64,000 bases of DNA from contig JAFXHF010000024.1 of NCBI GenBank assembly GCA_017536545.1, forward strand, positions 1 through 64,000, in the 5' to 3' direction. Each line of letters opens with the position of its first letter. The first letter of the stretch is position 1. The stretch is from a bacterium. GTDB taxonomy: Bacteria; Cyanobacteriota; Vampirovibrionia; Gastranaerophilales; Gastranaerophilaceae. Shown here one piece after another: positions 15,231-15,973 of the stretch. The position numbers and the translations under genes are program-made. The notes beneath the pieces were generated by a model. The model was given only the letters and a program-made list of their open reading frames with translations, did not search any database and was not told where the DNA came from.

Positions 15231-15243
15231 TTTATACAAAAAT

Positions 15244-15278
15244 AAAAGAGGCGATTTCATTTTGAAATCGCCTCTTTT
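15244..15278. terminator. Bidirectional terminator between the pilin gene and rplT
   Basis: A 16-bp perfect stem (AAAAGAGGCGATTTCA and its complement) with a 3-base loop, T-rich on both sides. It serves both convergent genes. Confidence 0.9.
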
Positions 15279-15302
15279 AATGCTTTTTGTAAATTCTGAA
15301 AA

Positions 15303-15897: not shown

Positions 15898-15941
15898 CAA
15901 AAAATTATAGGCATACCAAAGCCTATAACTTTCGGCTTGGT
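15898..15941 (-). promoter_or_regulatory. rpmI-rplT leader: terminator/antiterminator attenuator
   Basis: On the minus strand ACCAAGCC (15934-15941) can pair with GGCTTTGGT (15915-15923; one bulge). Alternatively TATAGGC (15921-15927) pairs with GCCTATA (15906-15912), followed by A and six T residues. The two stems share the GGC, so only one can form: the first is an antiterminator, the second an intrinsic terminator about 30 nt before the rpmI start. Autoregulation by L20 is known for infC-rpmI-rplT leaders in other bacteria; that it applies here is inference. Confidence 0.7.
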
Positions 15942-15944
15942 TTC

Positions 15945-15973
15945 ATCATATTATGAAAAACTTTCAATTGCAA
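15945..15973 (-). promoter_or_regulatory. Promoter of rpmI-rplT
   Basis: TTGCAA (15968-15973), 17-nt spacer, TATGAT (15945-15950) on the minus strand. Transcription would begin near 15938-15941, right at the first arm of the antiterminator. Confidence 0.65.

Follow-up and report, generated by a model that had tools for sequence, protein, structure and literature searches.

What controls rpmI-rplT, the operon for the ribosomal proteins L35 and L20, in a genome where infC lies elsewhere? In Bacillus subtilis, L20 is the regulator of infC-rpmI-rplT and stabilizes a terminator in the leader, according to PMC6097659. We analyzed a 64,000-nt stretch of DNA (the window) from a Gastranaerophilaceae (gut Melainabacteria) genome, which totals 1,904,638 bases in 29 contigs. 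A sequence-only reading of this DNA had proposed that a compact terminator/antiterminator switch precedes rpmI-rplT, and had noted that infC is not part of the operon. Indeed, infC sits on another contig. As we explain below, rpmI-rplT carries a conserved cis-regulatory hairpin at the 5' end of its RNA, a candidate ribosomal-protein leader.

The rpmI-rplT locus and its promoter

The features of the locus are:

17177-16005, minus strand: folC, 5' of rpmI-rplT (NCBIfam, over cut-off)
15973-15968, minus strand: -35 box of the operon's promoter, TTGCAA
15950-15945, minus strand: -10 box TATGAT, after a 17-nt spacer (predicted +1 near 15938 by spacing)
15944-15887, minus strand: whole element according to covariance model R1 (57 bits, E 4.8e-9)
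15937-15934, minus strand: AGCC, the 5' flank of the hairpin, kept in the window's close relatives; belongs to GCCGAAA
15933-15921, minus strand: 5' arm GAAAGUUAUAGGC (from the fold and covariation)
15920-15913, minus strand: apical loop UUUGGUAU, which contains the loop core
15917-15913, minus strand: loop core GGUAU, whose conserved form across the family is GG(U/C)AU
15912-15900, minus strand: 3' arm GCCUAUAAUUUUU, which holds the U-run earlier taken for a terminator tail
15880-15875, minus strand: Shine-Dalgarno sequence AAGGAG of rpmI (from the sequence)
15868-15659, minus strand: rpmI (L35; NCBIfam TIGR00001, over cut-off)
15647-15303, minus strand: rplT (L20; NCBIfam TIGR01032, over cut-off)
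15243..15279, minus strand: strong, bidirectional terminator-like hairpin 3' of rplT (-23.1 kcal/mol)

The promoter that had been claimed, TTGCAA-17-TATGAT, is present on the minus strand with both boxes at that spacing, and a program scan of the window also picked it up. The transcription start had been placed at about 15938-15941. The usual distance from a -10 box puts it near 15938, which would leave most of the ACC at the head of the proposed first bases 5' of the transcript. (Many of the family's leaders, the window's included, have TTGCAA in place of TTGACA as their -35 box. This may be a preferred promoter type of the lineage.)

A hairpin directly after the promoter

Directly after this promoter, at 15933-15900 on the minus strand, is a 13-bp hairpin. 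In the minimum-energy fold, GAAAGUUAUAGGC pairs with GCCUAUAAUUUUU around UUUGGUAU in a single stem. The fold of 15933-15900 has an energy of -14.6 kcal/mol (z -5.6), and none of 200 shuffled sequences did equally well; a 52-nt stretch around the hairpin has a fold z of -4.4. The hairpin itself is about 35 nt, in a leader of about 70 nt. This fold, with its continuous 13-bp stem, differs from a short terminator with a free U tail.

We then examined the regions upstream of rpmI at 208 loci, including the window's own. (Some genomes are represented more than once.) Of these, 171 have a hairpin with GG(U/C)AU at the end of its loop. Three hits (L173, L179, and L203) were dropped because they are infC coding sequence, which left 168 hits and 145 distinct leaders. 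(L026-L030 were likewise on the exclusion list, but had no hit.)

The family set comprises 184 loci, or 160 distinct leaders, if loci from named records are assumed to be family members. Only six of the 160 (L061, L063, L090, L181, L184, and L185) are missing GG(U/C)AU within 150 nt of rpmI. L061 and L063 have GGCAU farther upstream. Both leaders are long: GGCAUGUC lies some 250 nt before rpmI, and an extended, possibly structured stretch follows it. L181 retains a hairpin with a different loop, and its genome is still matched by covariance model R2 (E 2.5e-4). In L184 and L185, which are from one genus, another short hairpin of the GCA-AGGUGUAG-UGC type replaces the GG(U/C)AU loop; this is possibly a derived form.

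The leaders form several classes: GGC-UUUGGUAU-GCC (the window's class, with or without a bulge), CCGA...UCGG, GUGGAC-GGCAU-GUCAC, and a class with a GAA/AA internal loop. Separately, eight leaders (L079, L080, L091, L092, L096, L106, L168, and L171) have a further hairpin, placed 3' of the GGCAU hairpin and 5' of the Shine-Dalgarno sequence. Its core, UGCGG(U/C)(A/U)CAAAG ... CCCGU(A/G)A, is repeated among them, and the flanking stems vary and look covarying by inspection.

The arms of the hairpin covary

Compensatory change maintains the arms of the hairpin. We counted pairs on ungapped or lightly gapped alignments, with shuffled and slid controls. Of 95 representatives at below 85% identity, 26 sister-genus sequences (A3), 12 sequences of a second class (A4), and 14 of a third class (A5) were pair-counted, and the remainder were aligned only. 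A further alignment, A6, has 25 distinct sequences that were chosen by pattern for the window's class.

In A3, 92.3% of cells are paired (slid controls, 24.7-64.7%), and 5 pairs changed on both sides, with 23 such cells as compared to 7.3 in shuffled alignments. The corresponding values are 93.2% paired, 6 pairs, and 18 cells for A4 (6.1 shuffled), and 88.1% paired, 7 pairs, and 23 cells for A5 (9.9 shuffled). In A6, 99.7% of cells are paired, and 2 pairs changed in 2 cells (0.1 shuffled); the support from the window's class alone is modest because the class varies little. Family-wide, the support is strong. The cell counts are more decisive than the numbers of pairs and of pair types in both A3 and A4: the number of covarying pairs was matched by 75 of 500 shuffles (A3) and 6 of 500 (A4). 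There are also exceptions in A3, where 11 of the 26 sequences do not form pair 20-36 (a bulge that shifts by one position) and 8 do not form pair 12-44.

An alignment of relatives had been suggested as a check for covariation, and for the main stem the outcome is positive in A3 through A6. The 5' UTR of this ribosomal-protein operon thus contains a conserved, covarying structure, as in known ribosomal-protein leaders.

The loop core keeps its distance from the promoter

Because GG(U/C)AU was the query of the hairpin search, the invariance of the loop among the 95 representatives is partly by construction. A promoter-first search found GG(U/C)AU at 21-34 nt past the -10 box in 128 of the 132 distinct leaders that have a good promoter (11.5 expected from shuffling); this count limits the query bias, yet its promoter rule accepts TTGCAA, which had been noticed in the same leaders. 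Among the 145 distinct leaders, 142 have a promoter scoring at least 9/12 before the hairpin, and 134 of the 142 have 21-30 nt between the -10 box and the GG of the loop. The element is thus anchored to the mRNA's 5' end. From the loop to the start codon, the distance ranges from 34 to 127 nt across the 145 leaders. Since the distance to the promoter is kept and the distance to the ribosome binding site is not, an effect at the 5' end is favored over plain masking of the Shine-Dalgarno sequence.

Two other ideas about the leader did not hold up in general. Masking of the Shine-Dalgarno sequence by the hairpin was rejected as a general rule: of 134 leaders, 49 have a mean unpaired probability of 0.7 or more, the median is 0.58, and the value for the window is 0.51. 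And a pseudoknot between UUUGGU in the loop and ACCAAA before the Shine-Dalgarno sequence is present in the window, yet weak among relatives. In 62 distinct leaders that have the UUUGGU loop, its longest complement is 6 nt in 11, 5 in 2, 4 in 23, and 3 in 26, for a mean of 3.97 versus 3.52 in shuffled spacers. We consider this pseudoknot to be a lead for close relatives only.

Strong model matches lie before rpmI

For covariance model R1, we took 39 sequences belonging to the window's class, the window's own leader among them. R1 has one strong match in the window and no other. At E 0.01, it matched 61 of 194 genomes from the phylum, once each; all 61 are in the Gastranaerophilaceae, and every match is on the strand of rpmI, less than 200 nt 5' of it. 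R1 also matched 36 of 97 separately drawn family genomes at E 0.1; other leader classes are invisible to it. A caveat is that many of the searched genomes fed R1, so its recall cannot count as independent, whereas the lack of second sites can. With model R2, matches were found in 13 of 146 genomes from the order. Twelve matches with E of at most 2.5e-4 adjoin rpmI (compared by eye). Two weak matches (E near 0.012) are away from rpmI, and one of these is a second match in a genome that was already counted.

Rfam had no matches in the window at its cut-offs, and neither L20_leader nor any other family reached its gathering score at the leader. At the loci of 20 relatives, Rfam identified RNase P and a tRNA, with nothing at the leader. 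In a permissive scan, the best score was 24.1 bits, as compared to 50 required, and the matches were unrelated. Nor was this leader described in the literature we searched (main texts of open-licence papers). Neither Melainabacteria nor Cyanobacteria is mentioned in PMC7247131, and PMC8040213 contains neither Gastranaerophil- nor Cyanobacteria.

L20 is the likely ligand

Overall, we believe that the hairpin is probably the 5'-terminal operator of an autogenously regulated rpmI-rplT operon, that is, a previously undescribed ribosomal-protein leader of the Gastranaerophilaceae, with L20 as its likely ligand. L20 is plausible by the content of the operon only. The sequence-only reading had suggested a minimal L20 leader or a new class, and the leader is possibly a new class.

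Likeness to 23S rRNA is a further lead. Our first 23S pattern, whose letters we think fit E. coli, matched 0 of 146 genomes, and a second was found in 4 of 60 genomes; 23S was not found in the window's own genome. All four 23S stretches from the family contain GCGCCGAAAAU, in the strand after the GTPase-centre region, which we take to be the 3' strand of helix 40. This strand also contains GCCGAAA, to which the AGCC before the window's hairpin belongs. GCCGAA is in the 5' arm of 75 of the 145 leaders, and GCCGAAA in 49. Judging from these letters, the likeness could be a lead for mimicry of rRNA in some classes; other classes lack it. (Matches of GGYAU to 23S were set aside: the family's 23S has several short ones, at chance level and in a different structure.)

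Alternatively, this could be the same kind of leader with L35 or another factor as its ligand. rpmI is the first gene, sequence alone does not single out L20, and the likeness to 23S is limited to the 75 leaders. The operons that have been studied are regulated by L20, not L35 (PMC6097659 and PMC7247131), and we consider a different ligand to be unlikely.

The element of our preferred reading, an L20 leader, resembles several known systems in other bacteria. Like the L20 RNA of B. subtilis (L20_leader in Rfam), it precedes an operon for L35 and L20 and is proposed here to exert autogenous control. The B. subtilis operon includes infC and has an L20-stabilized terminator (PMC6097659); in contrast, the window's genome has infC on another contig and a leader of about 70 nt, conservation does not extend to the U-run, and no Rfam family matches. 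The L20 r-leader motif of Deltaproteobacteria is also small, and according to PMC7247131, it copies, as L20 leaders do, two features of rRNA: a pair of adjacent G-C pairs, and an AA dimer. It belongs to another lineage and has a different scaffold, and in our element a CC-GAA resembling that of rRNA is in some classes only. Two candidates from PMC8040213, HMP2_39 (Alistipes) and HMP2_3043 (Treponema), are likewise short RNAs before the L20 gene in human-associated bacteria; they are from other phyla, and we compare them to this element by description, not structure. A further known system is the rpmI operator of Escherichia coli, which combines a pseudoknot with an irregular stem, has two L20 sites, and acts on translation over a long range. 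It too is a leader RNA at rpmI-rplT, but the element here is a single 5'-terminal hairpin.

An attenuation switch is improbable

In the proposed switch, AAGCC would pair with GGCUU when L20 is low, and TATAGGC/GCCTATA followed by six U would terminate transcription when L20 is high. The strings that were quoted for it are all on the minus strand: ACCAAGCC at 15941-15934, GGCTTTGGT at 15923-15915, TATAGGC at 15927-15921, GCCTATA at 15912-15906, and six T at 15904-15899. L20 attenuation is known in Bacillus (PMC6097659), and the U-run is long in most of the window's class. Still, we have several pieces of evidence against a switch.

First, the terminator lacks a free tail, as five of the U pair with GAAAG inside the 13-bp stem. 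The stem above the U-run is weak (-9.6 kcal/mol, versus -23.1 for the terminator after rplT), and the output of a terminator scan of the window does not include the hairpin. Across the 145 distinct leaders, a run of at least five U within 25 nt past the loop is limited to 48; 8 have four U and 89 have fewer. Where the U are lost, the same positions stay paired by other letters: at pair 15-41, where the U-run would be, 19 of the 26 A3 sequences have GC and the other 7 have AU. So selection seemingly keeps the pairing and not the U-tract, and termination is not the conserved feature. On the U-run tally, the A3 pair counts, and the energies, we rejected a terminator as the conserved function. In the genus of the window, some termination could still come from the U-rich 3' arm.

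Second, the antiterminator pairing has no covarying pairs in A6 or A3, although covariation had been suggested as the check for this stem as well, and we rejected it as a conserved feature. In A6, the alternative helix ACCAAGCC/GGCUUUGGU is 78% paired, a value that shuffling reproduces exactly. Of its pairs, one fails in 22 of the 25 sequences and another in 12, and its outer ACCA portion is broken in many. Across the family, the pairing is disrupted in the majority of genera. In A3, it is 43% paired, which is not above the shuffled or slid controls. AGCC is nearly always kept in A6 and could pair with GGCU (those four pairs are possible in 24-25 of 25), and in the folds of some relatives, AGCC can also pair with a 3' flanking GUU or GCU.

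A Bacillus-type attenuator would have a terminator with a free U-tract and a conserved antiterminator helix, and we found neither. We give the switch little chance. What stands of the earlier model is a compact leader that begins at the first transcribed bases, is not linked to infC, and is possibly a new class.

How the hairpin might act

The hairpin could instead be a 5'-end stabilizer that protects the mRNA from 5'-dependent decay, with no dedicated ligand, as its fixed distance from the promoter and its predicted position a few nucleotides from the 5' end might suggest; this is improbable because a plain stabilizer would not need the letters GG(U/C)AU, which are kept though the stem letters change, and because other mRNAs would gain too, yet the model's matches are confined to rpmI.

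The predicted start of transcription is a few nucleotides ahead of the hairpin. If the hairpin is an operator, as we prefer, then when rRNA is scarce, a free ribosomal protein, most likely L20, would bind the stem-loop, and this would lower expression of the rpmI-rplT operon. In short leaders, the bound protein might occlude the initiation region; in long leaders, it might speed decay or block elongation. The classes vary widely in their lower stem and in leader length, so it is uncertain that a single mechanism applies to all of them.

Separation from infC

Where might the leader have come from? In 14 of 18 genomes from other families of the order (L192-L209), infC is 5' of rpmI on the same strand. 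In the other four, it was not seen within the stretch examined, which for L194 spans 431 bases. The hairpin is missing from all 18; the sole formal hit, 148 nt upstream in L203, is inside infC. Within the family, five genomes from two genera (L169, L172, L173, L178, and L179) have infC at 99-150 nt before rpmI, and all five have a GGCAUGUC stem-loop in the gap. This fits with the hairpin arising between infC and rpmI before the two separated, although the order of events is our inference.

(One locus, L025 from G038 C23, has a tandem pair of hairpin-like stretches whose loops contain GGCGU. Its genome also has a second rpmI contig, which is linked to infC (L198), and one of the two contigs may be contamination.)

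We tentatively suggest, at somewhat less than even confidence, that this is a new and unusually small class of leader: a GG(U/C)AU hairpin that was born in the infC-rpmI gap with an internal promoter, that freed rpmI-rplT from infC, and that regulates from the 5' end of the mRNA and not via the ribosome binding site or a terminator.

Significance

Evolution has produced L20 leaders several times and on differing scaffolds; every independent case therefore tests how an RNA can come to mimic rRNA or otherwise bind L20. The analysis also yields a covariance model that matches once per genome for the leader classes within its reach. The element described here is about 35 nt, sits at the 5' end, and is spread over one large uncultured gut family. 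The separation of infC from rpmI-rplT gives it a clear evolutionary setting, so the gain of the leader in this family should be datable.
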